Virus record (IMG/VR): IMGVR_UViG_3300022841_000039
Location: 1 to 33,090 of that record
Length of the DNA: 33,090 nucleotides
Reading direction: 5' to 3' (one strand)
DNA from: a virus
The stretch's first letter is position 1. Each line of letters begins with the position of its first letter. The notes under the pieces were generated by a model that was given only the letters and a program-made list of their open reading frames with translations, was not told the origin of the DNA and ran no database searches. Shown one piece after another: positions 11,380-31,367 of this stretch. The translations under genes were made by a program, and so were the position numbers.

Positions 11380-11417
11380 ACTGGTAAGACCACATACGCA
11401 AATAAAGTATGCTAGGC
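11380..11417 (+). promoter_or_regulatory. Promoter with ACTGGTAAGACCAC box (head-cassette promoter)
   Basis: ACTGGTAAGACCAC at 11380-11393 lies about 50 nt upstream of the signal-peptide gene. It is aligned like the boxes ahead of other plus-strand genes (15198, 28119, 30814, 31330). The -10 is less clear here: CTAGGC at 18 bp, or TATGCT at 14 bp. The box has a TGGT-N3-ACCA inverted core like GntR-family operators. Confidence 0.55.
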
Positions 11418-11445
11418 TTATATTTCAATCAACCAGGGGAACAAA

Positions 11446-11799
11446 ATGAGACATACAACAAAAGTAATTATTAAATCAGCAATACTCGCATCATTTATTG
11501 TTACTTTGTTTGCAATAGGCACAACAAAGGTATTTGCATCTGAAACAGACCAGTGCAAAGATTGGCACAAAATCGGGACAGTAATAATGAATATGCGCCA
11601 ATTAAACGCACCAATTTCAGACTTGATGCAGATAGCAAAAAATAATCCAGACTTTGAAGCTATAATGAGAGTTATTACAATTGAAGCATATGACCGTCCA
11701 AGATACTCAACTAAGGAGATGCAAGATAATTCAATTAAAGAGTTTGCAAACGAGGTTTATTTAATTTGTTATAAAGCTAATACAGAAAAGGAGGTTTAA
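11446..11799 (+). CDS. Small exported protein of head-module cassette
   Basis: This 117-residue protein starts after AGGGGA with good spacing. Residues about 1-31 form a Sec signal peptide: basic MRHTTKVIIK, a hydrophobic core AILASFIVTLFAIG, and a probable cleavage after VFA. The mature part has two cysteines (QCKDWHKIG and YLICYKA), likely to pair in the periplasm, and an MRQLNAPISDLMQIAK...YDRPRYSTKEMQ pattern seen in other small phage proteins of unknown role. It is the first gene of a plus-strand cassette inserted between capsid and connector genes on the other strand. An envelope-directed role such as superinfection exclusion is speculative. Confidence 0.7.
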   Translation: MRHTTKVIIKSAILASFIVTLFAIGTTKVFASETDQCKDWHKIGTVIMNMRQLNAPISDLMQIAKNNPDFEAIMRVITIEAYDRPRYSTKEMQDNSIKEFANEVYLICYKANTEKEV

Positions 11800-11802
11800 G
11801 TT

Positions 11803-11889
11803 ATCATTAGCAATAAAAAAGCCGCGATAATATGCGCGGTTGTGTCTGTTTTTTATACTTCTATTGGGTTGGTTGTTTTTTATTTTTAA
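11803..11889 (+). CDS. Possible 28-residue membrane miniprotein with non-ATG start
   Basis: AGGAGG at 11789-11794, inside the end of the previous gene, is the best ribosome site of the cassette. An open frame starts 8 nt later at ATC (11803), with ATT next. It encodes (I/M)ISNKKAAIICAVVS then VFYTSIGLVVFYF, a lysine pair followed by one hydrophobic helix. No ATG, GTG or TTG start is available at usable spacing. It may use a rare AUC/AUU start or be a gene that lost its ATG. The same DNA holds a weak hairpin (CCGCG/CGCGG) followed by a T run, so an attenuator is the alternative. Confidence 0.35.
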   Translation: MISNKKAAIICAVVSVFYTSIGLVVFYF

Positions 11890-11901
11890 TGGGGTTTGGA
11901 T

Positions 11902-12228
11902 ATGAAGTTAATAATTAAGAGTTACAAAGTAGTAGAGAATGAAAAAGTTCTATTAAGGTTTCCATCTGTTGAACCAGGAGACTTTATTCTGTTTCATGGT
12001 AATAACATGGATAATACAATTATATTCGACTCACACGCTATTGAGGTTGATAATGATGATGCCGAAAATCCCGAGAGAGTACTTGTGTTTAGGCTTAAAG
12101 GTAACGTTATAGCGACTTTCAGAAGCTCAAAAGAGATGGCGTTATTTAATAGCGCAATGGATCGCTTCCAAACTGCTTTTATTGCGGCGCGTCAAGCTTT
12201 TGAAACATCTTTAGCGGGGGTTTGGTAA
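11902..12228 (+). CDS. Cassette hypothetical protein
   Basis: I chose the ATG at 11902, which has GGGG 7 nt upstream; a TTG two codons earlier is possible. The 108-residue product is unrecognised. It has a beta-rich N-terminal half (IIKSYKVVENEKVLLRFPS, GDFILFHGN) and a helical C-terminus (SAMDRFQTAFIAARQAFETS). There is no signal peptide or membrane segment, so it is probably cytoplasmic. Its stop overlaps the next start (TAATG). Confidence 0.6.
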   Translation: MKLIIKSYKVVENEKVLLRFPSVEPGDFILFHGNNMDNTIIFDSHAIEVDNDDAENPERVLVFRLKGNVIATFRSSKEMALFNSAMDRFQTAFIAARQAFETSLAGVW

Positions 12229-12641
12229 TGACAGTATCACAAAAAGAAGTAAATGAAACTTTAAAGTATATTAAAGAAAAATACCCTAGATCAAATGATA
12301 ACGGGCTGCAAAGTCATATACTGGCTAGGTCAGATTCTCCTTTGGCTTATATGAATGACGCTCGATTTTTGGATGATGTCCAGCGCTCTCAAAAATGGGT
12401 TAGATGGGCTAAGGGTTTTGGATTGCGAAAAACAATAAACAAAACACGAACAAGTTATACAATAAAGCACTACATTGAAGAAAGTGAGATTTCAAAAGGG
12501 TACGTTCCAAACATGGCTGCAATAGTTGCGTTTATTATTGAGGGTGTGAATATAACATCAAATGGAAACCCTTACACAAACCTAAGCATGAAATGCTTTG
12601 TTAAATATAAACGGGAGGATTTGTTATGGGCTATAACGTAG
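12228..12641 (+). CDS. Cassette hypothetical protein
   Basis: This 137-residue basic protein starts at 12228 within TAATG, with GGGGG 7 nt upstream; the TTG two codons earlier is less likely. Visible pieces are an N-terminal helix (KEVNETLKYIKEKYPRS), a basic WVRWAKGFGLRKTINKTRTS segment, a helical KHYIEESEISKGYVPN and a hydrophobic AAIVAFIIEGV. The basic stretch could bind nucleic acid, but no known domain is recognised. It overlaps the next gene by 16 nt. Confidence 0.6.
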   Translation: MTVSQKEVNETLKYIKEKYPRSNDNGLQSHILARSDSPLAYMNDARFLDDVQRSQKWVRWAKGFGLRKTINKTRTSYTIKHYIEESEISKGYVPNMAAIVAFIIEGVNITSNGNPYTNLSMKCFVKYKREDLLWAIT

Positions 12642-12829
12642 TGGTTATGGACGCTAAGAATAAAAACCATATTGGCTATTGTGATGGGATGTATTCAAAA
12701 TCAGTTGTTAATGACATTGTTAAAAAATACATGCTGAAATACAGGAAAGTAAAGTTTGAGGTGGTAAAAGTTAAAGAGTGGAGTAAAGATAGTAAACTTA
12801 TTTCAGATATTAAGGATGAATTAAAATGA
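12626..12829 (+). CDS. Small basic cassette protein
   Basis: This 67-residue protein follows GGGAGG and overlaps both neighbours. It starts with a strand (MGYNVVVMDAKNKNHIGYC), then a helix (SVVNDIVKKYMLKYRKVKFE), giving a compact alpha/beta look, and is rich in lysine. No family was recognised. Coupling by overlap to the P-loop gene downstream suggests they act together. Confidence 0.55.
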   Translation: MGYNVVVMDAKNKNHIGYCDGMYSKSVVNDIVKKYMLKYRKVKFEVVKVKEWSKDSKLISDIKDELK

Positions 12830-13227
12830 TTAAAGAAATAGAGCCAAAGCAGTTTTTAAGGCTGGTTAAAAACAAGTTTAAGCGGGGCGATTTCACTCCA
12901 ATTGTGCTTTTCGGTGAGACTTGTTCGGGTAAAACTACTTTGTGTAATGCTGCTAATAAAGCTTGCGGAAAAATAACTTACGAAAGTTACTCGCTTTATG
13001 CTTTAAATACTAAGCGCATGGAAAAGAATAAAAAGCACCTAATGCGTGAAATTTGCGATTTGGCTTCAATGTGTAAAATTCAAGTTTTCTCATCCCCTAA
13101 AACAGAAGTCGCTATTGCATTTGGTAAAGCGTTTGGATTGCCAGTTTACCAACTTAATGATATTAGGGCTTGTAGGGGAATAATGGAATTTGGAGAAGAC
13201 AACTTCCTAGATAGTTTAGTTGCGTAA
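12826..13227 (+). CDS. Small P-loop NTPase-like protein
   Basis: This 133-residue protein has a Walker A motif at residues 30-37 (GETCSGKT) after the strand FTPIVLF. A second hydrophobic strand (KIQVFSS, about 86-92) may serve the Walker B or base-strand role, but no clear acidic Walker B residue follows it. The C-terminus (EFGEDNFLDSL) is acidic. It is far shorter than typical AAA proteins, closer to small nucleotide kinases. It is the last gene of the cassette, just before a terminator. Substrate and role are unknown. Confidence 0.65.
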   Translation: MIKEIEPKQFLRLVKNKFKRGDFTPIVLFGETCSGKTTLCNAANKACGKITYESYSLYALNTKRMEKNKKHLMREICDLASMCKIQVFSSPKTEVAIAFGKAFGLPVYQLNDIRACRGIMEFGEDNFLDSLVA

Positions 13228-13234
13228 AACCCAT

Positions 13235-13263
13235 AAAAAAGCCGCTGATTAAAGCGGCTTTTT
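13235..13263. terminator. Bidirectional rho-independent terminator
   Basis: GCCGCT (13241-13246) and AGCGGC (13253-13258) pair around a 6-nt loop, flanked by A6 on one side and T5 on the other; A/T pairing extends the stem. It lies between the convergent ends of the plus-strand cassette (13227) and the capsid gene (13282) and can stop transcription from both sides. Confidence 0.9.
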
Positions 13264-13281
13264 ACTATCTTCTATTTACTA

Positions 13282-14496
13282 TTAAGTGGCAACAGTAAAC
13301 AAACCTTTACAGAATGCTTTAGGCAATGGAATTGCTAGTGTGTAGCGTTCTTCCGCTAAGATTGCAACGCCGTTTTTGACGAAGTAATCAGAGTGTGACT
13401 CACTAACTCTAACTGATACGCTTTCTCTATCATAGATTACCGCACCCATATTCCAATCACCGATAAGGAACTGTGTTGCTGGCATTGCATTAGTTACAAT
13501 GACAGGGATACGCCATACAGAATCAGCAGCGCGAACTGTAGGCATAGACACCATCAAATAATGGCCGTCTGTTGCTTTTGCTGTCTCAAGGATTTCCCAA
13601 TCAACAGGGTTAAGCACTAAACCAGTCATATTGTAGTAATCAGACTGTTGTTCAATACGAATTGCCTTGCGGATGTGGTCGATCATAGCACTAGGTATAT
13701 CACCAGCGGATGTACCTGCTGGAAGTTGCCCAGCGTCATTCAAATCAGCATCAACTAGTAATCCGGTCAAGTTTGCACCAGTACCAGAGCCAAGCAACAA
13801 TTGTGCATCAGATGCCAAATCAAGGCCATAAGTCAAACGGTTGTCAATCATGTTTTGCAACATAGGCGCATCTGCTAATACCTGGCGAGACGCTGGAATC
13901 CAATGTGCAATTGTACGAACTGGGTAAGTAACTAGCTCGTAAGTGATGTTTGACTCAGCTTTAGCGGCAAATTCAGCGCTTTGCGGCGCGGCACTATTGG
14001 TAAATACGTTTTCGCGCATAATTTCAACAGCGTTTGATGCAGTTGGCACGGCTGGGATTAGGTCACGGATGCGTAAAGGTCTGTTTGGATCTTGAAATAC
14101 GCGAGAGTCACGGTCTGGACTAATAAGTGCGCCTGCACTAGCTGCGGCTGATGTGATGTCTTTGCGTTCAAAAGAAACAGCAACGTTGTTACCGCGACCA
14201 TTTGACTTCATATCTGTAAATGCAGTTGATGCAGTAAACAACTCGCCCATTGATTTACGTATCTCTGATCCGCTTTCCATTTTCTTTGACTTCTGCTCTA
14301 GCTCGATTAATTTCGCATCAACAGCGCCAAACAATGTTTTAAGCTCACCAAAGTTTGCTTCATGCTTTTCGAAAGCCGCTTTAGTTTCTGCGCTAACATC
14401 GCCATTCGCTTTTATTTCTTCTTGCATTTTTACCTGTGCATTTTTAATTTCAGTTGATGCAGTGTTCAACTGGTCTGCTAACTCTTTAAGTTCCAT
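13282..14496 (-). CDS. HK97-type major capsid protein
   Basis: This 404-residue protein has an N-terminal helical, charged scaffold-like delta domain (about 1-85, rich in Glu/Lys/Ala), then the HK97 fold pattern: GALISPDRDSRVFQDPNRPL, RIRDLIPAVPTASNAVEIMR, AHWIPASRQVLADAPMLQ, LASDAQLLLGSGTGANLTG and a C-terminal YTLAIPLPKAF. The upstream protease would be expected to remove the delta domain near residue 85-105. GAGGG precedes the ATG. The gene ends next to a bidirectional terminator, so connector gene expression must rely on readthrough or a promoter not identified here. Confidence 0.93.
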   Translation of the reverse strand: MELKELADQLNTASTEIKNAQVKMQEEIKANGDVSAETKAAFEKHEANFGELKTLFGAVDAKLIELEQKSKKMESGSEIRKSMGELFTASTAFTDMKSNGRGNNVAVSFERKDITSAAASAGALISPDRDSRVFQDPNRPLRIRDLIPAVPTASNAVEIMRENVFTNSAAPQSAEFAAKAESNITYELVTYPVRTIAHWIPASRQVLADAPMLQNMIDNRLTYGLDLASDAQLLLGSGTGANLTGLLVDADLNDAGQLPAGTSAGDIPSAMIDHIRKAIRIEQQSDYYNMTGLVLNPVDWEILETAKATDGHYLMVSMPTVRAADSVWRIPVIVTNAMPATQFLIGDWNMGAVIYDRESVSVRVSESHSDYFVKNGVAILAEERYTLAIPLPKAFCKGLFTVAT

Positions 14497-14536
14497 TTTG
14501 GAAACCCTCTTGTAATTGATTAATGTTTAGTTGGCC

Positions 14537-15160
14537 TTACAGCCCAAAGTTTTTGACCGCTAATAATATCGCGGTTTCTTCATCTCGCGGCTGCGTAATA
14601 ATTTGAGTGTTTTTAAACGGCTCAACTTTTAACAGTGCTTTTAATTCATCTAGTAATTCGGTTAATTCTTTTAATTGGTTCGGAGTACAGTCGCCAGTCT
14701 TAAGTCTATCAGTAATTGATTTGACGCTTGTGATAAAAGCTTTCTCATTCATTGGGAAGGTAACAGGGCTAAACTCATAAAGTTTGACCTCGTTGATCAT
14801 CCTGTTGCCTTTGTCATTGTAAGAACTTTTACCCTGTGGAATGCTAAAACCGATACTCATTTGGTCAATAACTTTATCTGCCATCAACTCTAAAACTTCA
14901 TCACCTAACCTGGTCTTGCTGATTTTGCCTTCAACATATAAGCCTTTTGAGTCTGGCTTCATAATTAACGGCTTGCCAATTGGAGTGGTATGGTCAAATA
15001 ATATCTTTACGCGGTCGGCTCTTTCTTGGATTGTCTTATTAAAAGCCTTACTGGTAATTATATCGCCGCCCAAGTCCTCGTCAAACGTTGAGGCATAGCC
15101 TGCGAATGTACGCTCTGACACGCTAGTTTCGGCTTTAAAATCTACCGGCTTAAAATCCAT
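14537..15160 (-). CDS. HK97-type prohead protease
   Basis: I chose the ATG at 15160 (AAGGTG upstream); a GTG three codons earlier is an alternative. The 207-residue protein has the U35/HK97 protease pattern: RTFAGYASTFDEDLGGDII, the His-containing VKILFDHTTPIGKP, LMADKVIDQMSIGFSI with the likely catalytic Ser, and YEFSPVTFPMNEKAFITSVK. It matures the capsid by removing the delta domain. The C-terminus has a helical linker (LKELTELLDELKALLK). Gene order protease then capsid is standard. Confidence 0.92.
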   Translation of the reverse strand: MDFKPVDFKAETSVSERTFAGYASTFDEDLGGDIITSKAFNKTIQERADRVKILFDHTTPIGKPLIMKPDSKGLYVEGKISKTRLGDEVLELMADKVIDQMSIGFSIPQGKSSYNDKGNRMINEVKLYEFSPVTFPMNEKAFITSVKSITDRLKTGDCTPNQLKELTELLDELKALLKVEPFKNTQIITQPRDEETAILLAVKNFGL

Positions 15161-15197
15161 TGTTGACACCTTAATTTATTTATTACTAGTATTTTAA

Positions 15198-15236
15198 ACT
15201 GGTATGACCACATAGTCAAATTTAGTGTGTTATTGT
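15198..15236 (+). promoter_or_regulatory. Promoter with ACTGGTATGACCAC box
   Basis: ACTGGTATGACCAC at 15198-15211 is followed 19 bp later by TATTGT (15231-15236), just upstream of the small plus-strand gene at 15259. Relative to the box at 11380 only one base of the 14 differs. It also lies upstream of the divergent protease gene. Confidence 0.65.
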
Positions 15237-15258
15237 GTGTTTTTAATTAGGGGATAGT

Positions 15259-15498
15259 ATGACAATCACAGAGAAAACATTTACACGAGAGTTAATGCTT
15301 GCGGCTAACAATTATGTAAACAGTCAAGGTAAGCCGCCGATATTTAAGATTGTTTATGTATCCGATGCTTTTTTTGGGTATTTGTGCGATTCGTTTGATA
15401 TTATTGGGAGTGTTATGAACAGAGCTAAATATCAAGGCTATGAAATTATTAATGTTGGCTTTGATGATGTGCCGCCGTTTGTTATTTACTTAGGCTAA
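15259..15498 (+). CDS. Small single-gene insertion in head module, unknown
   Basis: This 79-residue protein follows AGGGGA with good spacing. It has a helical N-terminus (EKTFTRELMLAANNYVNSQG), then KPPIFKIVYVSDAFFGYLCD, and ends FDDVPPFVIYLG. No domain was recognised. It runs opposite to its neighbours, between the protease start and the end of the gpF-like gene, and overlaps the latter by 9 nt tail to tail. It has its own box-type promoter, so it can be expressed independently of the late operon. Confidence 0.7.
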   Translation: MTITEKTFTRELMLAANNYVNSQGKPPIFKIVYVSDAFFGYLCDSFDIIGSVMNRAKYQGYEIINVGFDDVPPFVIYLG

Positions 15499-16266
15499 TG
15501 AGTATCCAACAACACAGCGACAGTTAATTATCTCTTTAGCACTACCGTTGGGGTCGCCTGGGTGCAATAATATATCAGTGCCCACAGAGAATGATTCGCC
15601 TTTATTTACTTTCTGTCCGTTGGATGCTAAATGCGTTAACCTTGTGCGCTCGGTTAACGCGCTTATCCACTCCTTCTTTATTCCACTTCTAACCGTACTA
15701 ACGGCTTTCTCTGCGCTTGCATTAGCCGAACTATGTGATTCTGTACGTGCAATCATTCGACCTCGTAGGCGTGATAGATTACCACCTTGCTCAGCTATTC
15801 TTTGTTGTATCAGTATTCCAGTTTCGCGCTCTGCCAACCCTTCGGTAACTGAGTCCTCCAATGCTATCCTAATTATTTCTAGTGCTTGGATACTGGTTGT
15901 GTTTGAGATTTGCGTAACCCTTAAGCCTGCCACCCATCGCAACCATAGAGCCATCTGGGTATCAAAATAAGGCGTCATAGGAACATCGCGCTTTATATTC
16001 ATTTGGGCTAATGAATCTAGCATACGCTGACCGAATATATTGTAAGATACACTGTAAAGCTTGGTTAGTAATTTATGTAACCGAGTCTGATGTATTTCCA
16101 TAACCGCAGGCATATCACCATCATCGGTGCGTGCAATTGCTTTCATTGCCCTAAGTATCTCACGGCTAAATGCGCTCTCGCTTTTGTTGGCAAGATCGAT
16201 AATACCAGCCTCTACAATTTGCTGCTCTTGTATCGGTGTATAACCCGTAATTAGTTTACGAGCCAT
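15490..16266 (-). CDS. Minor head protein, Mu gpF / SPP1 gp7-like
   Basis: This 258-residue protein has the Mu-F-like C-terminal signature: IARTESHSSANASAEKAV (about 170-187), KKEWISALTERTRLTHLASNG with HPGDPNGSAKEIINCRCVVG at the end. The N-terminal 130 residues are helical. Members bind the portal vertex and affect head morphogenesis or DNA ejection. The start overlaps the portal stop by 11 nt, the common portal-gpF arrangement. Confidence 0.9.
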   Translation of the reverse strand: MARKLITGYTPIQEQQIVEAGIIDLANKSESAFSREILRAMKAIARTDDGDMPAVMEIHQTRLHKLLTKLYSVSYNIFGQRMLDSLAQMNIKRDVPMTPYFDTQMALWLRWVAGLRVTQISNTTSIQALEIIRIALEDSVTEGLAERETGILIQQRIAEQGGNLSRLRGRMIARTESHSSANASAEKAVSTVRSGIKKEWISALTERTRLTHLASNGQKVNKGESFSVGTDILLHPGDPNGSAKEIINCRCVVGYSLA

Positions 16267-17554
16267 ATGTAATTTTACTCATCATCTTTTTAACTGCGGT
16301 ATCAACGGCCTCATCTTCGCTTGCTACGGTTTCATCAACTAACGGATCTTGCTGCACTACTGGCAATTGATCGCCGTCAAATCCTAGCTCTAATCGCTCA
16401 TTTATAGACGCGGCTTCAAATCCAATTGCTTTCAACTTAATAGCGTTATCCAGTTTTTCGCCGTAATTTTCTTGTAATGCTCTGATGTTTGATAAGTCGT
16501 ATTCAATGCAAAATTCTGCACCAAACTCAGAGGCTAATTGCTTGTTTAATTGCGCTTTGATTAGGTCTAATTGTGGAATTATAGTATTAGTCCACAATTG
16601 TTTTAGCATGGTTTCTGCATTCGATAGGTTTACATTCTCAGTTAATCCCAAGTCACTTAATGACATGCCAAACGCTGCGGTAATCTCACCCCATATTTTA
16701 TTCTTACTATTTGCAAAATCCATTTCAACAGCAGAGGTGTTTAGTATGTTTACTTTGCCGCTTGTTACTAATGGCTTACGTGCATTGTCATTGCCACCGT
16801 TACGATCAATAATAGCCTCTTGAATTGCTTTAGCATCTTCCGCAGATGTCTCTGATGGCACTTCAACGTGCAAGTCTGTAACGCCTCTGTTCTCAAACGA
16901 TCGCTTTTGCCACTCTCCAGCCTCGCGGTCAATATCTGTCGCTCTACCGGCTGACATTAAAACAGGCATACCAAAGTAACGGCTATTCGGGTTAGGGTTT
17001 TTTAGCTGAATCATATCATCGGCTAAAATAACAAATTTCTTCGCGCTATACTCTTGATATTCAAAGTGGTCAACTAAGCGCTCTTTGCCTGGCTTAATTT
17101 TCATAAACTGACTAGGCAATACCCACAATTGAGTTGGCAGGTTTCTTGCACCCGCTTTAATCTCGGATATAAATGCGCTGCCTGATAAGTCCATCATTTG
17201 ACTAATTGAATATGTCAATTCAAGCATCGATAGTTCTGGATTGGGGTTATCTAGCAATAATTGAAGCGGCGAGTTTGGCGCTAACTCTTTTGTTCCGTCG
17301 GCTTTTATTATATTAGCCTTCCACGGAACAGATGAAATTAATTTTGCTCTCTTCTCAACGCAAGCATAAACAACAGCAGATGCATTATACCCCTCGTTTA
17401 TTGCTACCTCAGTGTTCCAATTGTGATCGTGCTTTGCGAATAACCTCCACGTAGCAGATGCCTCTGGCAGTGATACCGACTTTATGACCGCCGCGACTTG
17501 TCGGCCTACATTCGTTTTAGGATGCTCAATTAGTTTCTTATCGAAAGGCCACAT
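16256..17554 (-). CDS. Portal protein, HK97 family
   Basis: This 432-residue protein matches the HK97-type portal: NEGYNASAVVYACVEKRAKLISSVPWK near the start, LLDNPNPELSMLELTYSIS, SGSAFISEIKAGA, LWVLPSQFMKIKPG, then RATDIDREAGEWQKRSFENRG and SLSDLGLTENVNLSNAETMLKQLW. It forms the dodecameric ring through which DNA is packaged. It follows the large terminase and precedes the gpF-like gene, the standard packaging order. The ribosome site (AAGAG) is weak. Confidence 0.93.
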   Translation of the reverse strand: MWPFDKKLIEHPKTNVGRQVAAVIKSVSLPEASATWRLFAKHDHNWNTEVAINEGYNASAVVYACVEKRAKLISSVPWKANIIKADGTKELAPNSPLQLLLDNPNPELSMLELTYSISQMMDLSGSAFISEIKAGARNLPTQLWVLPSQFMKIKPGKERLVDHFEYQEYSAKKFVILADDMIQLKNPNPNSRYFGMPVLMSAGRATDIDREAGEWQKRSFENRGVTDLHVEVPSETSAEDAKAIQEAIIDRNGGNDNARKPLVTSGKVNILNTSAVEMDFANSKNKIWGEITAAFGMSLSDLGLTENVNLSNAETMLKQLWTNTIIPQLDLIKAQLNKQLASEFGAEFCIEYDLSNIRALQENYGEKLDNAIKLKAIGFEAASINERLELGFDGDQLPVVQQDPLVDETVASEDEAVDTAVKKMMSKITYGS

Positions 17555-17593
17555 TTTTAATACTCTTATTTAATTAGTTCAATTATATACTGA

Positions 17594-19838: not shown

Positions 19839-19866
19839 TTTATATTTTCCTGTGTCGTGCGCTAGT

Positions 19867-21252: not shown

Positions 21253-21254
21253 TA

Positions 21255-22252: not shown

Positions 22253-22432
22253 TTATTCCTCTTCGCCGTCATCGTCAAGGCATTTATTGCAATATAATTC
22301 TGGGTATCCGTATTCGTCTTGTGAGTCGCATTCCATCGGTTCGTCACAGTCTGGGCATATTGGACCTTCATCATAGAATGGGCTGCGTGGGTCGTTATCG
22401 AATTGGCGTATGTTGTCTGGGTAGTTGTTCAT
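22253..22432 (-). CDS. Zinc-ribbon miniprotein
   Basis: This 59-residue gene starts at ATG 22432 with AAAGGGAT upstream and ends in TAA. It has two CxxC pairs, CPDC (26-29) and CNKC (48-51), typical of a zinc ribbon, with an acidic C-terminus (DDDGEEE) and many Asp/Pro residues. Such proteins may bind nucleic acid or partner proteins; the acidic charge points rather to protein binding. It follows the metallophosphoesterase gene after a 17-bp hairpin. Confidence 0.72.
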   Translation of the reverse strand: MNNYPDNIRQFDNDPRSPFYDEGPICPDCDEPMECDSQDEYGYPELYCNKCLDDDGEEE

Positions 22433-22451: not shown

Positions 22452-22488
22452 AGTAAACCCAATACTACATCGTAATACTGGGTTTACT
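22452..22488. terminator. Long perfect-length hairpin, possible terminator or processing site
   Basis: A 17-bp stem (22452-22468 with 22472-22488) with a 3-nt loop lies between the metallophosphoesterase stop and the zinc-ribbon gene. On the minus strand two pairs are G-U. There is no proper T run, so termination is uncertain; transcript processing or attenuation are alternatives. Confidence 0.55.
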
Positions 22489-22500
22489 GCTCCGACCAGT
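22486..22500 (-). promoter_or_regulatory. ACTGGTCGGAGCAGT operator-like palindrome
   Basis: This 15-bp sequence, reading on the minus strand, is one base short of a perfect palindrome and resembles the FadR-type TGGTC-N-GACCA core. The identical 15 bp occurs in opposite orientation at 25472-25486. It starts at the last base of the metallophosphoesterase stop codon. Confidence 0.45.
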
Positions 22501-23660
22501 TAATCATCACCCCTAACATTCTCTTGAACTCTCAACGGCAAATACCCGTGTTTCTTATCGAATATTAATCCTTGTATTCCTCTCATTGCACCGTAACCTG
22601 CACCATGCGCCCAAGTACATTTTGGAGGTATAATGCCAACAGTCTCGACAACGCAGCCTGGATGTTCTTTAAATTGCACCCAACTGTTATGATGGACATG
22701 CCCAGTAATCCAGTGGCGATATTCAGAACCACCCCATAGCATTGGCGCATCGGCTGCCATTTTTCCAGGTAGGCTTGGTATCTTACATGTGTGCCCGTGT
22801 GCAAAACCTAGCAATACTTTATCGCGGTGAACATATTGAAAAGGATTGTCGCCTTTTTGCACAGTTACACGCGGATTATCTAGGTATAACTGTTCCATAA
22901 AGCCGCCTAATGCTCGTCCTAATACGTCGTCATGATTACCTGGTACGTTAACAAATTCAACCTTCTTGTATTTCTTTAGGCACAAGTCAGTAAACAGCCT
23001 CATCAGCACCATACCAGCATCAATCCATTTACCATGATAACTGGCTAAATCCTGTTTGTTGCCGCCTCTGGTTGTATATCCGGCGGCATTATCAGCATGA
23101 AACAAGTCGCCAGTGTTTAGCAATACGACTTCCTCAGTGTCAGGCAATGCAGATAACAATCGTCTAAACACTTTGCCGTAAACTCTATCCGCTATTTCCA
23201 TATTCCACTCATCGCCCGTAATAGCTGACCAAACTTGCAAGCCAATGTGAGGGTCACCAATTGGTATGACGGTAAATCTGTTTTTACTTTGGGGTTTATT
23301 TAAATATGGGATTAGCGGGGCTGGTGGTATTTCATGTATTAATGCATCAAGCATTCGTCTTGCTGTTTCGTACTGGTCAGCCAGTGCTACGTTAGTTTTA
23401 ACCCATTCCATTACAGTGCCAGTCGAGCCGTCCTCCTTGTTCATCAGTCTGTGCAATGTCGAGTAGCCTTTGACTATCTGGTCATCAGGGTTTTTGTGTC
23501 GGCGCTCGTTATCGGGGTCGTAACCAGTTGCCTTAAGCTTTGATATGTGATTATAAACTGCTCGCTCTGACATATCGTGCTTAGTTGCAATAGCTTTCCT
23601 GGTTAGTCCATTCGATAGCTCTTCGCGTAACTGCTCATGTGTAATCTTTGGTGCGCTCAT
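22500..23660 (-). CDS. HTH-metallophosphoesterase fusion
   Basis: This 386-residue protein (start at the second ATG, GGA 6 nt upstream; the ATG at 23666 is possible) has an N-terminal winged or homeodomain-like HTH (about residues 5-45 counted from the upstream ATG: LRKA/TRKAIATKHDMSERAVYNHI) followed by a calcineurin-like phosphoesterase domain. Counted the same way, metal-binding motifs are GDPHIG (137-142), GDLFHAD (186-192), GNHDD (243-247), HGH (290-292) and GHVHH (322-326). All conserved metal ligands are present, so it should be active as a phosphoesterase or nuclease. Proteins of this architecture are common in phages; the substrate is not established. It lies in the non-structural minus-strand operon. 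Confidence 0.87.
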   Translation of the reverse strand: MSAPKITHEQLREELSNGLTRKAIATKHDMSERAVYNHISKLKATGYDPDNERRHKNPDDQIVKGYSTLHRLMNKEDGSTGTVMEWVKTNVALADQYETARRMLDALIHEIPPAPLIPYLNKPQSKNRFTVIPIGDPHIGLQVWSAITGDEWNMEIADRVYGKVFRRLLSALPDTEEVVLLNTGDLFHADNAAGYTTRGGNKQDLASYHGKWIDAGMVLMRLFTDLCLKKYKKVEFVNVPGNHDDVLGRALGGFMEQLYLDNPRVTVQKGDNPFQYVHRDKVLLGFAHGHTCKIPSLPGKMAADAPMLWGGSEYRHWITGHVHHNSWVQFKEHPGCVVETVGIIPPKCTWAHGAGYGAMRGIQGLIFDKKHGYLPLRVQENVRGDD

Positions 23661-23710
23661 AATCATTCCATCTTATGTAAGGACTTGACTGTAAACTAAA
23701 TAAGTATTAT

Positions 23711-23869: not shown

Positions 23870-24047
23870 TAGTATTAACCTTTAGTTTTTCAACTACATC
23901 AAGTACTGTATCAGCGTGTAATTGATGTTTTTTTACATAATATTTATATCCGCAATCTAAGCATTCATACCCTACAACTGACATACCAAAATATGTTGGT
24001 ATTCCTGTATGTGCTTTTCTGTGAAATAGTTTTTTGATAAAATTCAT
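23862..24047 (-). CDS. Small zinc-finger-like protein
   Basis: This 61-residue protein is coupled to the upstream gene through TAATG. It has CLDC (about 30-33) and a later HQLH, a possible mixed zinc site, in YECLDCGYKYYVKKHQLHAD. The N-terminus is basic (NFIKKLFHRKAHTG). A zinc-bound miniprotein is plausible; role unknown. Confidence 0.6.
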   Translation of the reverse strand: MNFIKKLFHRKAHTGIPTYFGMSVVGYECLDCGYKYYVKKHQLHADTVLDVVEKLKVNTNE

Positions 24048-24974: not shown

Positions 24975-25405
24975 TAGCCCTCACTCCCTATGCAATAGCC
25001 TTCTGCAATCAATAATTCATAATCTGCTTTATAATGTGTATCCCTGTCTATTACTGACCCATATTGCTCATAGCTCAACGGCTTAACTTTGGATTTTGTG
25101 TAGCCAGCATGGTATAAAAACTCGGCAGCTCTCCTATTTTTATTACGTTGGTTTGCTGGCATATTGCCCACCATTTCATCAATCGCTTTTTGCTTTGCGG
25201 TTTCTGCCGGGTTTGGGATTGGTTTAAGGTATTTTATATTACATAAAATAAGCCCTGTACTTTCATTAAGCACAAGACATACTTGAATACCGTCAATTGC
25301 ACACACTTTTGCTCTTTTATTATCGTGCAAAACAATCTGCCCCACAATCGGCAACCTTTCACCATTCCAATTATTTTCCTGAGCTTCTAAATCTATTCCG
25401 TACAT
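24974..25405 (-). CDS. First gene of minus-strand operon, unknown
   Basis: The ATG at 25405 has AGGGGAT 8 nt upstream and is preferred over in-frame codons up to 25438, which would overlap a candidate promoter. The 143-residue protein has a beta-rich N-terminal part (RLPIVGQIVLHDNKRAKVCA, STGLILCNIKYLKPIPNP), followed by ETAKQKAIDEMVGNMPANQR and RAAEFLYHAGYTKSKVK. The central 'NPAETAKQKAIDEM' resembles a segment in several phage proteins of unknown role. Location at the head of the operon hints at early or middle expression. Confidence 0.65.
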   Translation of the reverse strand: MYGIDLEAQENNWNGERLPIVGQIVLHDNKRAKVCAIDGIQVCLVLNESTGLILCNIKYLKPIPNPAETAKQKAIDEMVGNMPANQRNKNRRAAEFLYHAGYTKSKVKPLSYEQYGSVIDRDTHYKADYELLIAEGYCIGSEG

Positions 25406-25433
25406 ATCATATCCCCTAATTAATCGAACCCTA

Positions 25434-25461
25434 AGCATAACAAAAAACCCATGTTATGCAA
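25434..25461 (-). promoter_or_regulatory. Candidate minus-strand promoter with internal hairpin
   Basis: TTGCAT (25461-25456) and TATGCT (25439-25434) are spaced 16 bp apart, 28 nt before the first gene of the operon. The same DNA holds an 8-bp inverted repeat GCATAACA / TGTTATGC (25435-25459). The match to consensus is modest. Confidence 0.4.
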
Positions 25462-25471
25462 CGTCTATTTG

Positions 25472-25486
25472 ACTGGTCGGAGCAGT
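25472..25486 (+). promoter_or_regulatory. ACTGGTCGGAGCAGT operator-like palindrome
   Basis: Identical to the 15 bp at 22486-22500 but on the other strand, so the pair brackets the minus-strand operon. It lies just upstream of the candidate promoter at 25434-25461. The left half (ACTGGT) is that of the plus-strand promoter boxes. Confidence 0.5.
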
Positions 25487-25751
25487 GGTAAAACTTGATC
25501 GTCTGCAACCTGGCAAAGCAACCATTTCAGCATAAAAACACACATTATGTTAAATACGCCGTAAATGGGCTTGAGCGCAATCCTCACGATACTTGTTTTT
25601 ACCCTTTACGTTTTGTCGAATACGCGAATATAGTTTGTGTGTGTTCTTGTTTGGTAAGTTGTAATTGATTTAATGCTGCCTATTGCAGTTGTGAGTTTAA
25701 GTAATCAATGAAAGAACCATTAAATAACTAGTTCTATGGCTACATACGTGG

Positions 25752-26009
25752 AAATAGGGTAGTTTATGGAAACACTACCCCAGACCGGAGACCACGCCAG
25801 TAAAGAGATTAATAAATAAATAGGGATATATGGTTACTTACTTACTTACTTTAATTATCTCTATTAATATGTATATACGTGTGAGGATGGAGGTATGTAT
25901 GCCCACCCCATAAAATTGCCATAACTACCCTATTTGCCATAAACCGCATGGATAAAGGGCGCAAGTCTAAGGTAGTACTTCCATAAACACTTAAAAACTA
26001 CCCTATTTC
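25752..26009. repeat. Iteron-like repeats, candidate replication origin or regulator-binding cluster
   Basis: The stretch 25406-26157 has no convincing gene. CCATAAACTACCCTATTT occurs inverted at 25752-25769, and as CCATAACTACCCTATTT at 25919-25935. ACTACCCTATTT recurs at 25997-26008, with a CCATAAAC copy just before it (25981-25988) and another at 25937-25944. A degenerate copy AAATAGGGATATATGG lies at 25818-25833. GGGTAGT/ACTACCC (25757-25763, 25774-25780) is an inverted repeat. Between copies there is an AT-rich stretch with four TTAC units (25834-25849). This layout next to replication genes suits an origin, but could be a transcription control region. Confidence 0.55.
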
Positions 26010-26097
26010 GTGTTTAAAATGAAGAATATTACCCTAAGATTATTGTGTTATCTGATTACTTAATCGTAAGTATTTGTCTTTTTATGTCATATGATGA

Positions 26098-26126
26098 TTG
26101 ACAAGTTGTTGGCAGTGTTTTACATT
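26098..26126 (+). promoter_or_regulatory. Early sigma70-type promoter
   Basis: TTGACA (26098-26103) is followed 17 bp later by TACATT (26121-26126), 32 nt upstream of the first gene of the plus-strand early operon. The -35 is perfect and the -10 matches 4 of 6. It lacks the ACTGGT box found at the other plus-strand promoters. Confidence 0.7.
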
Positions 26127-26157
26127 TAGTTACCGAATTATAGATTGAGTGAAAATT

Positions 26158-26337
26158 ATGAAGTTTGCAATTGATGAAGAAAGAGAGACGCTTTGGATTG
26201 ACCTAGAAGGTAAATTGTATCCTTTTGGGTCTTGTGGGTTTAAACCGGCTGATTTTTTAGGTGAAGACATGAGCAGTTATGGGGCTTGCCCTTGTCGTTT
26301 AAAAGAAGAAGATTTTAAGGAGATAGTTAATGACTAA
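26158..26337 (+). CDS. Small early protein, unknown
   Basis: I chose the ATG at 26158 with GAGTG upstream; a GTG three codons earlier is possible. The 59-residue product (MKFAIDEERETLWIDLEGK) has three cysteines (GSCGFK, ACPCR) that could form a metal site or be incidental. It overlaps the Cro-like gene by 8 nt and is the first early gene. No family was recognised. Confidence 0.6.
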   Translation: MKFAIDEERETLWIDLEGKLYPFGSCGFKPADFLGEDMSSYGACPCRLKEEDFKEIVND

Positions 26338-26560
26338 CACAGAAAAAACCCAACTAAGAAACTTACGCCAACTGTCAAAATACTTTGATTACAACCGCAG
26401 TGCGATGGCAGAAAGTCTAGGCGTTGAGTCACACGTAGTATATCAGTGGTTTAGCCGTGGAAGAATTAGCAAAACTGGTGCAGTGTTAGCAGAAAAAGCG
26501 ACAAGTGGAAAAGTTACCGCCGCGCAGTTGCGTCCTGATATTGCGGAATTTGAGGAGTAG
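26330..26560 (+). CDS. YdaS/Cro-like helix-turn-helix regulator
   Basis: This 76-residue protein has a helix-turn-helix pattern (AESLGVESHVVYQWFSRGRI) and the YdaS/Cro-type continuation (SKTGAVLAEKATSGKVTAAQLRPDI). AAGGAG lies 7 nt before the ATG. It probably represses its own early promoter or the divergent one. No opposing CI-type repressor gene is visible in the window. Confidence 0.82.
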   Translation: MTNTEKTQLRNLRQLSKYFDYNRSAMAESLGVESHVVYQWFSRGRISKTGAVLAEKATSGKVTAAQLRPDIAEFEE

Positions 26561-26565
26561 GGGGA

Positions 26566-28119
26566 ATGGATCATAACGTCGTAAACATCAACGCCACAGT
26601 TGAAATATACGCCAATGATAATAACACATCATTAGCTTACGCTTGTGCCGTATTCAAATCACCAAAAATAACACATGCGGAAATGTGGGATAATCCGATA
26701 AGTGCGGAAGATGACATTCCAGGTAAGTTTGCTACGTTAGTATCTCGCGACCGTAAAGACTTACTTAGCCGGTTTACTATTGCGGTTACTGATGTTGTAC
26801 AGTTTCCACAATCTACGGCTTTCTTACATGGTTTAGGTGTTGTCAGTGCAGCACTCAATAAAGCATTTCGCATACAATATCACCACGGTACTATACCGCT
26901 AAATCTTTACGTTATTACAGCGCAAAGACCATCAACCGGAAAGTCTGGTATGAATAACTTTTTTCTAAAACCGGTACGCTCTGCATATAAAGCTGAGGCA
27001 GATAGAACCGCGCCGATTAGGAACAAGTTAATAAGTGAAGTATTACAATTAGAAAAGGACATCGAGAAAGAAACTGACACAAGACAGATTCAGCAGTATT
27101 GCGATCAACTTGTCGAGGCTAAAGAAAAGCTATCAAAAGTACCAAATTGGCGCAGTCATATGTCAGACGTAACAATTGAAGCGGCTGAAATGTGCGCTGC
27201 GAGTCAAGGCGGTATGTTTAACATTATATCTGCGGAGGCTAATGCGGTGTCGGTTGTTACAGGTGGTGTGTATGGTGACAGTAAATCATCTAAAAATTTA
27301 GGTCTTATATTGTCGGCGTGGGATGGCGAACATGTTAGTTCTGCCCGGGTAACTCGTGAAGGTATTGATTGCGAGGTACGTGCCAGTATTGCGGTATTAG
27401 CTCAGAATGATGCGGTTAAGGTTATATTAGATGCAGGCGCAACCGGTACAGGTATTACAGAACGGTTTTTGTTGCTATCAGAACCGACAATGTTAGGCAG
27501 TAGAGGCGACCCTATTTACGATAAGGTTGCATTCCCTAAGTTACTCGCAGAATACGAGGCGCTAATCAATAATATAATTGCAGAGGATAATATTGTAATT
27601 GATTTTAGTCGCGAGTCTGAAAAGTATTTACGGCTTAAAAAGCGCAGTATTGAACCGAAAATGGCTGATGATGGCGAGTACTCAAACGACTTGATTGGTG
27701 GTTTTATCGGTAAAGCTGACAAACATATAAGGAAGATTGCGGCAACATTACATTGCTGTGAGGAATGGCGCGATACTGGCAGTAAGTCAAAGATAGTCGG
27801 CATAGAAACAACTATGAGAGCATCTGCATTATTTATGGAGTTAGCGGCAAGGTTTTTACATGCAGTCGATTGTCATGGTTATAGCGGCGAAAACTCAGAG
27901 GTTGAAAAGTTAGTCACTTACTTTACCGATAAAGCAGAAAAGGGAAAGCTTAAGATAACAATACCAACATTGGTAAGTAATCTATCTGGATCAAGACCAT
28001 TTAAAGGAACACCAAAGATAACATCAAGAATTAAAGATAAGATATTGCCAATCCTGGCGCAGCGCAATTATGTTGTTGTTGTTGATAATACTGTTTATAT
28101 AAATCCGAGGTTGAAGTAA
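26566..28119 (+). CDS. DUF3987 family protein (replication helicase/primase-associated)
   Basis: This 517-residue protein has the DUF3987 pattern: LSRFTIAVTDVVQFPQSTAF, IPLNLYVITAQRPSTGKSGM (a P-loop-like GKS), YGDSKSSKNLGLILSAWDG, RVTREGIDCEVRASIAVLAQ, GTGITERFLLLSEPTMLGSR, and a C-terminal winged-helix-like region. DUF3987 proteins often accompany primase-like zinc proteins in phage and plasmid replication modules and are thought to act as helicases or ATPases. It follows the Cro-like gene and precedes the CHC2 gene, consistent with replication. Confidence 0.8.
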   Translation: MDHNVVNINATVEIYANDNNTSLAYACAVFKSPKITHAEMWDNPISAEDDIPGKFATLVSRDRKDLLSRFTIAVTDVVQFPQSTAFLHGLGVVSAALNKAFRIQYHHGTIPLNLYVITAQRPSTGKSGMNNFFLKPVRSAYKAEADRTAPIRNKLISEVLQLEKDIEKETDTRQIQQYCDQLVEAKEKLSKVPNWRSHMSDVTIEAAEMCAASQGGMFNIISAEANAVSVVTGGVYGDSKSSKNLGLILSAWDGEHVSSARVTREGIDCEVRASIAVLAQNDAVKVILDAGATGTGITERFLLLSEPTMLGSRGDPIYDKVAFPKLLAEYEALINNIIAEDNIVIDFSRESEKYLRLKKRSIEPKMADDGEYSNDLIGGFIGKADKHIRKIAATLHCCEEWRDTGSKSKIVGIETTMRASALFMELAARFLHAVDCHGYSGENSEVEKLVTYFTDKAEKGKLKITIPTLVSNLSGSRPFKGTPKITSRIKDKILPILAQRNYVVVVDNTVYINPRLK

Positions 28120-28157
28120 CTGGTCGGATATGTACAGCACAAAAAATAGAATACAAT
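28119..28157 (+). promoter_or_regulatory. Promoter with ACTGGT half-box
   Basis: ACTGGTCGGATATG (28119-28132) overlaps the stop of the DUF3987 gene and shares its first ten bases (ACTGGTCGGA) with the two 15-bp palindromes. TACAAT (28152-28157) follows after 19 bp. The next gene starts at 28183 with AAGGGGAAG. Only the left half of the box is kept. Confidence 0.55.
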
Positions 28158-28182
28158 CGGTTTAAATTTAAAGGGGAAGAAT

Positions 28183-28995
28183 ATGAAAATCGACACAGAC
28201 GCACTACTCGCAAAACTAAACATAGTTGACGTAATCAATAACACTGGATTCCAACTAAAGAAAGAGGGCAAAAAATACGTTATGTGCTGCCCTTTCCACG
28301 CCGAAAAGTCACCATCATTTAAAGTTAACGAAGCTAAGCAGTTTTATTATTGTTTTGGTTGCGGTGTATCCGGTAATGCAATCGGTTTTGTAATGGACTT
28401 TCAGAAAATAGAATTTAGGGAGGCATGTGAAATGCTAGGCGCAAACGTAGCAGCAACACCGAGTGAGCAAGTTAAACAGAATATGAATAGAGTTATTAGC
28501 ACGTTACCTGGTTATGATAAGCGCGACCAGGATTTGTGTCTCTACTTACTACAGAATCACAGTGTAACAACAATAAACGGCGTAGACTTATATGATGTTG
28601 GTTTACATTTTTACGCGCCGGTTGTCGATTTACAGGACTCAATAGTCAACCTATACGACATAGTAAGCGGTGATTTTATTGCCGGTGGTGTATCTCATTT
28701 AGCATACACACCTATGATTAGAGATTTATTAATAGATACATATTTAATAATCACAGAATACGACGACGCAATAAAGATATTTAACAAGTATCAAAACGTC
28801 AATATTCTAGTTAGCCACTCGTCATACAATACAAAGTTACTAGCCGAATGTGATATGCCTATTTCGCGTATTCCTGTGTTGACTCAGGATGATACGTTGG
28901 CCTATTCGTTAATGGATAAGGGCGTGTGGTCTGAGTATAGGAAGTTGACTGGTAAATTGAGTAAGCGGATGAGCGGGGAGGATTTTTATGATTGA
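28183..28995 (+). CDS. CHC2 zinc-finger primase-like protein
   Basis: This 270-residue protein has a DnaG-type CHC2 zinc finger: C36, H39, C57, C60 (CCPFHAEKSPSFKVN, FYYCFGCGVSGNAIGFVMDF). The C-terminal half has only a weak TOPRIM look: YLIITEYDDAIKIF at about 187-200 (E192, D194, D195) lacks the usual EGxxD glycine, and no DxD is evident. It may bind single-stranded DNA and start primers with partners, or be a recognition subunit that lost catalysis. It overlaps the helicase gene by 8 nt. Confidence 0.82.
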   Translation: MKIDTDALLAKLNIVDVINNTGFQLKKEGKKYVMCCPFHAEKSPSFKVNEAKQFYYCFGCGVSGNAIGFVMDFQKIEFREACEMLGANVAATPSEQVKQNMNRVISTLPGYDKRDQDLCLYLLQNHSVTTINGVDLYDVGLHFYAPVVDLQDSIVNLYDIVSGDFIAGGVSHLAYTPMIRDLLIDTYLIITEYDDAIKIFNKYQNVNILVSHSSYNTKLLAECDMPISRIPVLTQDDTLAYSLMDKGVWSEYRKLTGKLSKRMSGEDFYD

Positions 28996-30814
28996 CTTAG
29001 GAAAATTCAAACTACGCGAAGAATACCAATTACCAATACATAACGCGACACTTGACCACCTACGCACAAAAGATGCTAAACCCGCGTTTATTGATGCATC
29101 GGTCGGCGCTGGTAAAACTTTAAATATCGCGGCTATTGCTAAACACTCACAAGAAAAGGGAGGTCGTGTTTTAATCTTAGCCAGGCAAGGTGAGCTAGTT
29201 AAACAGAATAGTGAAATGGCGTGGAAGTGCGGATTAAAAAACAGTATTTACTCGGCATCATGCGGCAGTAAATCAACGTTTTATCCTGTTGTTTTTGGTA
29301 CTGAGGGGACTATTGCGGGCGCATTAGATGGTGATTTTGCGACAACTAAGTATGATTTATTGCTAATTGATGAATGTCACATGGTGCATCACCAAGATAC
29401 AACGCTATCAATTAAAGGTAAAAATGAAGGTGAGCCAACCCAATACACAAAAATAATAACGCACTTACTAAAACTAAACCCTAAACTAAGAATCATTGGC
29501 TACACTGGCTCACCGTACCGAGGAAAAGAAACCATCATAGGCGAGTTTTGGCAGAAGAAACTATATGAAGTGCCAACAATGTACTTAGTTAGTCTTGGTT
29601 ATTTAGTTCCGCCTGTGTTCGGCTTTGGCGATGATGCGCACAAATATGATTTAGCAGAATGGACACCTAGAGATGCTGACAAAGGCGCGAGTGATTACGG
29701 CGCTAAAGAACTACAAGCAATGCAACGTAAGATTACAAAGGATAAACAGCTTACTCAGATTATTATGGAAGAGGTTGTAGGAATATGCCAAGCCCGTAGC
29801 GGTGGTGTAATGATTACTTGTGCCGGTAAAAAGCACTGTGAACAGGTTGCTGAGTTTTTACCAGAAGATAGTTGGGCAATTATTGTTGACTCGACAAGCA
29901 CAAAAGCCCGGTCTCAATCATTAGCTGATGTACGCACGGGTAAAATTAAATACATATTGCAAATTGGATGCTTAACGACTGGTATAAATATACCACCGCT
30001 ATCAACATCAGTCATTCTACGACGCATTGGGTCACTTACATTGCTTACACAGCTTATCGGCCGTATATTGCGCACGCTAGAAGATGAAGATTTAGAGCGT
30101 GGATTTACTAAGATTGATGGCTTGGTCCTTGATTATACAGATACTTTCGAATCATTCGGCGACATATACGACGACCCTATGCTAGACAATGCAAGAGCCG
30201 CAAAAGGTAAATTTATTAGTGAGACGCAAGATTGCCCGACATGCAACTCAGTAAACAGTATTCATGCGGTCAGGTGCATCGGTGCAGCGGCTAATTCAGA
30301 CGGGCGGTGCGATTACTTCTTTAAGGGTTCGATGTGCTTACGTTGCGATACAATGAACGCTCCGACCGCTCGCACTTGCCGCAACTGTGATGCAATTATG
30401 ATTGACCCGGCAAAAGCGTTAAAGAATAAAGCATATACGGATGCAGATTGGAAGGAAGTTATATTTGGCAGTATGAGTATGAAGCCAACGGCAAACAAAG
30501 ACGGTGTTTGTGTCGAGTACAGTTTGAACAGTATTTACACGGTTAACGGAAAGGAAATGCAGGAAGTTGCTAGAGAGTATTTAAAACCATTTAGCACCGC
30601 ACCGCATGAACGCCAGAAGTGGCAGTCATTTGTCAGCACGCATATTAACGGGCGCGGGTTCCAGGCTATAATGCGCAAAAACACGACAATTAATGACATC
30701 ATAAAGAATAAAGCGATGTTTTGTATGCCGTCGCATATTACGCATCGAGTTAATGATAAAGGTTTTTCGATAATTAATCGTAGACGGTTTTTATCGGGTC
30801 GTGAAGAGGGGTGA
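28988..30814 (+). CDS. SF2 DEAD/DEAH-type helicase with zinc clusters
   Basis: This 608-residue protein has helicase motif I (SVGAGKT, residues 38-44), motif II DECH (128-131), GYTGSPYRG as motif III, and LIGRILRT as motif VI. Eight or so cysteines in the region of about 416-470 (CPTCNSV, GRCDYFF, MCLRCDT, TCRNCDA) form zinc ribbons absent from most helicases of this length. A basic C-terminal domain follows. Such helicases assist phage replication or recombination. GGGGAGG lies before the ATG, inside the end of the primase-like gene. Confidence 0.88.
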   Translation: MIDLGKFKLREEYQLPIHNATLDHLRTKDAKPAFIDASVGAGKTLNIAAIAKHSQEKGGRVLILARQGELVKQNSEMAWKCGLKNSIYSASCGSKSTFYPVVFGTEGTIAGALDGDFATTKYDLLLIDECHMVHHQDTTLSIKGKNEGEPTQYTKIITHLLKLNPKLRIIGYTGSPYRGKETIIGEFWQKKLYEVPTMYLVSLGYLVPPVFGFGDDAHKYDLAEWTPRDADKGASDYGAKELQAMQRKITKDKQLTQIIMEEVVGICQARSGGVMITCAGKKHCEQVAEFLPEDSWAIIVDSTSTKARSQSLADVRTGKIKYILQIGCLTTGINIPPLSTSVILRRIGSLTLLTQLIGRILRTLEDEDLERGFTKIDGLVLDYTDTFESFGDIYDDPMLDNARAAKGKFISETQDCPTCNSVNSIHAVRCIGAAANSDGRCDYFFKGSMCLRCDTMNAPTARTCRNCDAIMIDPAKALKNKAYTDADWKEVIFGSMSMKPTANKDGVCVEYSLNSIYTVNGKEMQEVAREYLKPFSTAPHERQKWQSFVSTHINGRGFQAIMRKNTTINDIIKNKAMFCMPSHITHRVNDKGFSIINRRRFLSGREEG

Positions 30815-30851
30815 CTGGTAAGACCACTATATTAATATTTTTGTGTATAGT
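30814..30851 (+). promoter_or_regulatory. Promoter with ACTGGTAAGACCAC box
   Basis: ACTGGTAAGACCAC at 30814-30827 begins at the last base of the helicase stop and is followed after 18 bp by TATAGT (30846-30851), preceded by GTG. It would drive the resolvase gene. The box is identical to those at 11380 and 31330. Confidence 0.7.
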
Positions 30852-30864
30852 TAATGCTAATTAA

Positions 30865-30890
30865 TATACACATCAATTTTGATATGTATA
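30865..30890. promoter_or_regulatory. Near-perfect 26-bp palindrome in resolvase leader
   Basis: Arms 30865-30876 and 30879-30890 match at 11 of 12 positions (TATACACATCAA / TTGATATGTATA) with a 2-bp centre. It lies between the TATAGT and the ribosome site AAGGGGA, so it could be an operator or a leader hairpin. Confidence 0.5.
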
Positions 30891-30906
30891 GATTTAAGGG
30901 GAATTT

Positions 30907-31356
30907 ATGATAACAGCAATAGACCCAGACCTACGCAAAAGTGGCGTTTGTACTTTAAATTCTGGCGGAGGTATTATTTTTTTAAGGTCATTAAGTATTA
31001 TTGACTTAATAGAATACGCTGATGAAAATCAAACAGACACATTCGTAATCGAGGACGTAAATAAAATCAAAGCAATGTACAACAGGGGCGCAAAGACTAG
31101 CAACACAACTATTGCGCAAAACGTCGGTATGTGTAAAGGCGCTGGCACTATAATTACCGATATTGTTACTCACTATGCAATTAATCCACCAATACTCGCC
31201 CCAGTCGGTTTAGGTAAAACAGTAAAGAATAATACAAAGCTGTTTAAAGAATTGAGCGGATGGACAAAATCAAGCAATGAAGATATGCGGGATGCTTGGG
31301 CAATTGCGCGGTGGTATTTTATGCAAACAACTGGTAAGACCACATCAACTAAATAA
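30907..31356 (+). CDS. RuvC-like (RNase H fold) Holliday junction resolvase
   Basis: This 149-residue protein has the RuvC-type N-terminus (AIDPDLRKSGVC, D6), a middle acidic pair on a strand (TFVIEDV, about 47-49), and a C-terminal acidic helix (NEDMRDAWAIARW, D126 and D129). These fit the metal-dependent nuclease fold of phage junction resolvases. It likely resolves branched DNA before packaging. The final codons contain the ACTGGTAAGACCAC box of the next promoter. Confidence 0.77.
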   Translation: MITAIDPDLRKSGVCTLNSGGGIIFLRSLSIIDLIEYADENQTDTFVIEDVNKIKAMYNRGAKTSNTTIAQNVGMCKGAGTIITDIVTHYAINPPILAPVGLGKTVKNNTKLFKELSGWTKSSNEDMRDAWAIARWYFMQTTGKTTSTK

Positions 31357-31367
31357 GTGTGTATAGT
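31330..31367 (+). promoter_or_regulatory. Promoter with ACTGGTAAGACCAC box
   Basis: ACTGGTAAGACCAC (31330-31343) lies inside the end of the resolvase gene. TATAGT (31362-31367) follows after 18 bp, preceded by GTGTG, and a small gene starts at 31395. Confidence 0.7.

Follow-up and report, generated by a model that had tools for sequence, protein, structure and literature searches.

The IMG/VR virus record IMGVR_UViG_3300022841_000039, analysed here in its entirety (33,090 bp; hereafter the window), contains a short promoter-associated element, or box, which in its commonest form begins with ACTGGT. The boxes are predicted to be operators of the host FadR, a GntR-family fatty-acid regulator, and FadR probably activates small units of phage genes from them. 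They are read as host FadR operators because an independent matrix, for which only published E. coli FadR sites were used (seven; PMC4259882), picks exactly these. Ranked by this matrix, the seven boxes come first in the window (13.3–16.5 bits), and the next hit scores 11.5 bits. The seven hits of at least 13 bits compare with a simulated mean of 0.57 and a simulated maximum of 2. All seven sites also match the published 17-bp FadR consensus, aaCTGGTCnGACC(T/A)Gtt (PMC9329746).

Boxes, promoters and their likeness to fabA

A preliminary description of the window had listed five boxes ahead of plus-strand genes, four of them keeping a 14-mer nearly unchanged, with a -10-like hexamer after 18–19 bp in four cases and a weaker one at 11380. 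ACTGGT indeed starts exactly at 11380, 15198, 28119, 30814 and 31330, and ACTGGTNNGACCAC is exact at all of these except 28119. No other copy exists in the record (both strands, at most one mismatch), and the backward-read control gave 0 matches. When up to three mismatches are allowed, 26 window matches are found against 14.5 ± 4.3 expected, and therefore the signal resides in the exact copies. The 28119 site reads ACTGGTCGGATATG and is a separate variant of the same element, not a degraded copy; the site is kept in the relative G003, and the same variant is present in Alteromonas phage XX1924. The -10-like hexamers are present at all five sites, including TAGGCT (19 bp) at 11380, and a ribosome-binding site (RBS) and an open reading frame (ORF) stand behind each. 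The set of five plus-strand promoters holds, but two further sites had been overlooked. One of them (22500–22487, minus strand) adds a leftward promoter; at the other (25472–25485) no -10 was found at the activator spacing.

The second half of the box covers the position of the -35 hexamer, in agreement with the earlier proposal, and this hexamer position varies among the box variants. If the first base of the -10 is taken as -12, the operator centre lies at about -38 at six of the seven sites. At these six, an operator near -40, a -10 after 18–19 bp and no conserved -35 are found together, which is the fabA type of arrangement.

At the fabA promoter of E. coli, FadR overlaps -40 (PMC3462791); its activation works from upstream of the -35 (PMC9329746), and in Shewanella it binds and activates fabA (PMC4273635, PMC4537474). 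In most of the Alteromonadaceae genomes read, fabA has ACTG(C/T)TC(A/G)GAGTTGTT 19–20 bp ahead of a -10-like sequence. The phage boxes share with the fabA promoters of E. coli and Shewanella an operator overlapping approximately -40, the lack of a good -35, and a -10 about 18–20 bp past the 14-mer core, and some phage variants are one base in 14 away from a host fabA site. In contrast to fabA, the phage has several such promoters per genome, a stronger ACTGGT half-site and often GACCAC as the second half. Like the FadR consensus, the boxes mostly have C directly before TGGT: of 202 strand hits, 95 have AC there and 9 have any base followed by T.

Table 1. Boxes, associated promoters and adjoining genes in the window
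Feature	Position	Strand	Remarks
Possible opposing late promoter TTGCGT-17-TATAAT	11373..11401	-	box within spacer; upstream of ORF 11167-11361; TATAAT kept in G003
FadR-like box ACTGGTAAGACCAC	11380..11393	+	between divergent genes; exact match; FadR matrix 14.0 bits; palindromic in G003
-10-like TAGGCT	11413..11418	+	19 bp past box; TAGGAT in G003
117-aa ORF, phrog_2315	11446..11799	+	function not assigned; first ORF of plus-strand insertion 11446-13227
Opposing promoter TTGACT-17-TAAAAT (10/12)	15191..15219	-	box within 17-bp spacer; upstream of prohead protease gene 14537-15169; same layout in G003
FadR-like box ACTGGTATGACCAC	15198..15211	+	flanked by prohead protease gene (minus strand) and ORF 15259-15498 (plus strand); matrix 14.0 bits
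-10-like TATTGT	15231..15236	+	19 bp past box; identical in G003
79-aa ORF	15259..15498	+	no family match; 87% identity to G003
-10-like TAGTAT	22462..22467	-	19 bp past box; upstream of ORF 22253-22432
FadR-like box ACTGGTCGGAGCAG	22487..22500	-	overlaps stop of ORF 22500-23666; matrix 16.5 bits, window's best; kept in G003
FadR-like near-palindrome ACTGGTCGGAGCAG	25472..25485	not assigned	early intergenic region; matrix 15.4 bits; kept in G003
Sigma-70-like early promoter TTGACA-17-TACATT	26098..26126	+	without box; upstream of ORF 26149-26337
YdaS/Cro-like helix-turn-helix (HTH) protein gene	26330..26560	+	head of early operon
FadR-like box ACTGGTCGGATATG	28119..28132	+	between helicase and primase genes; matrix 14.3 bits; kept in G003
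-10-like TACAAT	28152..28157	+	19 bp past box
Primase-like ORF, 270 aa	28183..28995	+	downstream of 28119 promoter
FadR-like box ACTGGTAAGACCAC	30814..30827	+	overlaps stop of helicase 28988-30814; exact match; matrix 13.3 bits
-10-like TATAGT	30846..30851	+	18 bp past box
Holliday-junction resolvase-like ORF, 149 aa	30907..31356	+	
FadR-like box ACTGGTAAGACCAC	31330..31343	+	within resolvase gene's end; exact match; matrix 14.0 bits
-10-like TATAGT	31362..31367	+	18 bp past box; next RBS-ATG at 31395
63-aa ORF	31395..31586	+	first behind 31330 promoter; then exonuclease VIII-like 31568-32416

Two neighbouring regions may be described here. The minus-strand ORF 22500-23666 encodes a protein of 388 amino acids, a relative of phage DNA-repair exonucleases (phrog_704), which matches HTH_11 at its N-terminus and, weakly, a metallophosphatase; its identity to the G003 protein is only 35%, and many neighbouring proteins are far closer. 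The long early intergenic region 25486-26148 is without clear genes, and contains a plus-strand ORF of 57 amino acids (25495-25668) with 91% identity to G003.

Occurrence among phages and their hosts

The record is that of a marine phage, a tailed one by gene annotation. Its minus strand carries the tail, head and packaging genes, and its plus strand those for replication. The nearest terminases are those of Pseudoalteromonas phages PHS3 and AL, Aeromonas phage 62AhydR11PP, Alteromonas phage XX1924 and Vibrio phages. Searched with 22 kb for near-identical sequence, the phage collection gave no match, a helicase-based search in IMG/VR gave no relatives, and an Rfam search gave no RNA element. 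The relatives used here were gathered by tblastn with the terminase and the primase, and by the box motif.

All seven window sites are conserved in G003, in which the counterparts of 11380 and 15198 are near-perfect palindromes, ACTGGTAAGACCAG(A). Palindromic forms of the box are found in G001, G003 and G012. In whole records, ACTGGTNNNACCA(C/G) reaches up to 16 strand hits (G001) against 0.03 expected, and there are none in seven comparison phages, one of which, XX1924, bears other box variants. A scan of IMG/VR for the window box together with TATADT found five contigs, three with a promoter-like context, and a wider pattern found 64 stretches, of which many contain more than one box together with an RBS-ATG. 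A second variant, ACTGGTCNGAGTTGT (phage form ACTGGTC(G/A)GAGTTGTT), turned up in 49 stretches; its spacing peaks sharply, one gap accounting for 41 matches and the others for 9 and 2. Among the 56 boxes having a -10, 54 sit ahead of an RBS and an ORF, with a median -10-to-start distance of 29 bp. As the IMG/VR contigs were selected by the motif, these counts show repetition within genomes and not frequency among phages. One record, G016 (73,523 bp; L134-L137), has two sets of boxes approximately 39 kb apart with small differences, and looks like two joined related phage genomes or a concatemer.

The cultured Alteromonas phages XX1924 and PB15 were fetched through terminase and primase similarity and not by the motif. 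Their FadR matrix hits number 8 and 6, respectively (simulated means 0.40 and 0.35). PB15 9467 and XX1924 13198 are FadR-like sites at the divergent head-module position matching 15198, and PB15 6805 is the counterpart of 11380; in each case the sequence is different yet FadR-compatible. The matrix found nothing above shuffled sequence in PHS3, AL, ValSw3-3, 62AhydR11PP, Vibrio 1.085.O and VpaS_PGA. Since phages of related hosts are box-less, the feature is optional.

The domain FadR_C is present in 95 of 99 genomes of the Alteromonadaceae, which are among the likely hosts of such phages. A Colwellia FadR aligns with E. coli FadR over residues 1-229 (E = 9.9e-95), with a near-identical HTH. 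A FadR-encoding Alteromonadaceae genome, G094 (L237, C1 near 1526651), carries a type I-F-like array of clustered regularly interspaced short palindromic repeats (CRISPR) with 89 repeats. One of its spacers contains ACTGGTCGGAGCAGTTA, and two more resemble G016 and L187, both phages with boxes; in a control with 750 shuffled spacers, not one reached 24 identities. Judged by this similarity, the CRISPR spacers link box-bearing phages to FadR-bearing hosts, not the phage of this window in particular.

In host chromosomes, a looser pattern occurs in 16 of 148 genomes with no clear tie to fad genes, and was not used as evidence for FadR. Perfect palindromes were found in none of 35 host genomes. 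Two other loci are worth recording. In G046 (L236, L253; near 1501-1515), perfect FadR palindromes adjoin a -10-like sequence ahead of two genes, the products of which have similar N-termini (356 and 372 amino acids, without Pfam match). In a short contig of an Alkalimonas metagenome-assembled genome (L115, 696-1631 and 1734-1772), a phage-form box promoter faces an NYN-domain gene; a small HTH ORF and an ORF of HipA-like appearance are its neighbours, and the DNA is possibly that of a mobile element.

Proposed regulation and alternative explanations

Long-chain acyl-coenzyme A (acyl-CoA) releases FadR from its operators. FadR, active while long-chain acyl-CoA is low, would activate the phage promoters as it does fabA; this is suggested by the geometry, in which the operator at approximately -38 would replace the normal -35 at six of the seven sites. 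The units driven in this manner would be the accessory gene insertions of the head module and, within the early operon, the primase, resolvase and recombination genes. From its position, FadR bound at 15198, and less clearly at 11380, would block the opposing late promoter. The opposing promoter at 11373..11401 scores below the promoter-scan threshold and stays only possible. Release by acyl-CoA would reverse both the activation and the repression. Binding, activation, repression and the metabolic response are thus what we infer from the DNA sequence. A more far-reaching scheme is doubtful, though conceivable: a large, mosaic group of marine phages would run a genome-wide host-FadR regulon in which FadR switches on the promoters of accessory and replication genes and switches off the divergent late ones, a state to be flipped by a rise in acyl-CoA or by titration by replicating phage DNA, such that lipid state or copy number would time the infection and disturb the fatty-acid control of the host.

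Several observations weigh against assigning the boxes to host FadR as an activator. The phages of other probable FadR hosts (PHS3, AL and the Vibrio phages) are box-less, the IMG/VR contig counts are not independent because of the selection by motif, and FadR presence is judged from the Alteromonadaceae at large. A control matrix made from reversed sites yields 2 window hits. The commonest phage form ends in ACCAC and not in ACCAG, and often has T, not G, before ACCA, which makes the half-sites imperfect. The phage spacing between box and -10 (mostly 18–19) is 1–2 bp below that of host fabA. The exact phage box with a -10 occurs in host chromosomes only at control level (5 of 297 genomes; 2 hits in a GTDB scan). 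The exact phage form is therefore not a chromosomal promoter type; this fits a variant evolved in phages, and leaves room for another regulator. Finally, FadR might repress the box promoters instead of activating them.

Repression alone is an unlikely explanation. Under it, FadR would bind and the genes would be induced by fatty acids, or the sites would be decoys that titrate FadR off host promoters as phage DNA replicates. FadR is known to repress fad genes by overlapping their promoters (PMC9329746), and the phage boxes share with these E. coli operators the 17-bp consensus, the palindromic forms (G001, G003, G012) and, at 15198, a location within an opposing promoter. The many sites per phage (16 strand hits in G001), as against the lack of perfect palindromes in the 35 host genomes, also suit decoys. 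However, the spacing and position of the box-driven sites near -38 match activated fabA and not the fad promoters, whose sites lie over the -10/+1, and the box variants show no other conservation in the -35 region.

The preliminary description had proposed a GntR-type operator, of the FadR or PdhR kind, with either a host regulator or a protein of the phage acting on it. Host FadR is favoured among these by the independent matrix, the C before TGGT, the fabA-like variants and the absence of a shared phage gene family. It is quite improbable that the boxes are bound by a regulator of the phage itself, for which the Cro/YdaS-like protein of 26330-26560 would be the first candidate, with the likeness to FadR sites being convergence. 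The gene heads the early operon and is present in six of the ten long records with boxes, the closest relatives among them, but it is missing even by hidden Markov model (HMM) search from G010, G011, G013 and G014, which are possibly incomplete, and its product was rejected as the box binder. Phages 1N2-2 and CGphi29 have a related primase and an adjoining HTH gene, yet no ACTGGT box. No gene family is common to all ten records (the widest is in 6). A phage GntR regulator was likewise rejected, the domain being above the cut-off in only 1 of 31 records. Moreover, convergence leaves unexplained the top rank in the E. coli FadR matrix and the variants similar to host fabA.

Little probability is given to another host regulator of the GntR family, PdhR-like or other. 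The TGGT-N3-ACCA core is common across this family, and 11379, 31329, 15197 and 30813 are also the top hits of an illustrative PdhR-like matrix. PdhR-type operators, however, have the flanks TTGGT-N3-ACCAA, whereas in the boxes C mostly and T rarely precedes TGGT, and a matrix of the TTGGT type misses the variants GAGTTGT, GAGCAGT and GATATGT, which score high in the FadR matrix. The least probable explanation, and a very remote one, is that no regulator is involved and the box is a variant sigma-70 -35 element spread by promoter exchange between phages. ACCACA has three letters in common with TTGACA and stands at a 17-bp spacing, but the part most strongly constrained is ACTGGT, which lies upstream of the -35 hexamer, whereas the hexamer itself changes from variant to variant; palindromic box forms also exist.

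Comparison with known systems

Phage use of host regulators is already known, mainly from cyanophages and phosphate in the case of metabolic regulators; a FadR regulon appears to be new, and no earlier report linking FadR to phage promoters was found in the searches made of the open-access literature. If true, such a regulon would make infection by many marine phages depend on the membrane lipid and fatty-acid state of the host. The box would then provide a sequence mark for spotting such promoters in uncultured viruses, and the FadR assignment would give an easily tested wiring diagram in the cultured phages XX1924 and PB15 on Alteromonas.

The T4 MotA middle promoters and the mycobacteriophage stoperators are bound by phage-encoded proteins. 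The present boxes resemble them in that a short element recurs, either in a constant position near -30/-35 or at scattered points of the genome, and differ in that no shared phage protein was found for them. The cyanophage pho boxes, which are used by the host PhoBR (PMC10976474; work of Zeng and Chisholm 2012, as cited therein), are similar in that genes of marine phages carry sites to which a host sensor of metabolic state binds as regulator. In contrast, the regulator, the signal and the hosts are different here, and the predicted sites are spread as a set over the whole genome, at promoters between divergent genes and within operons.

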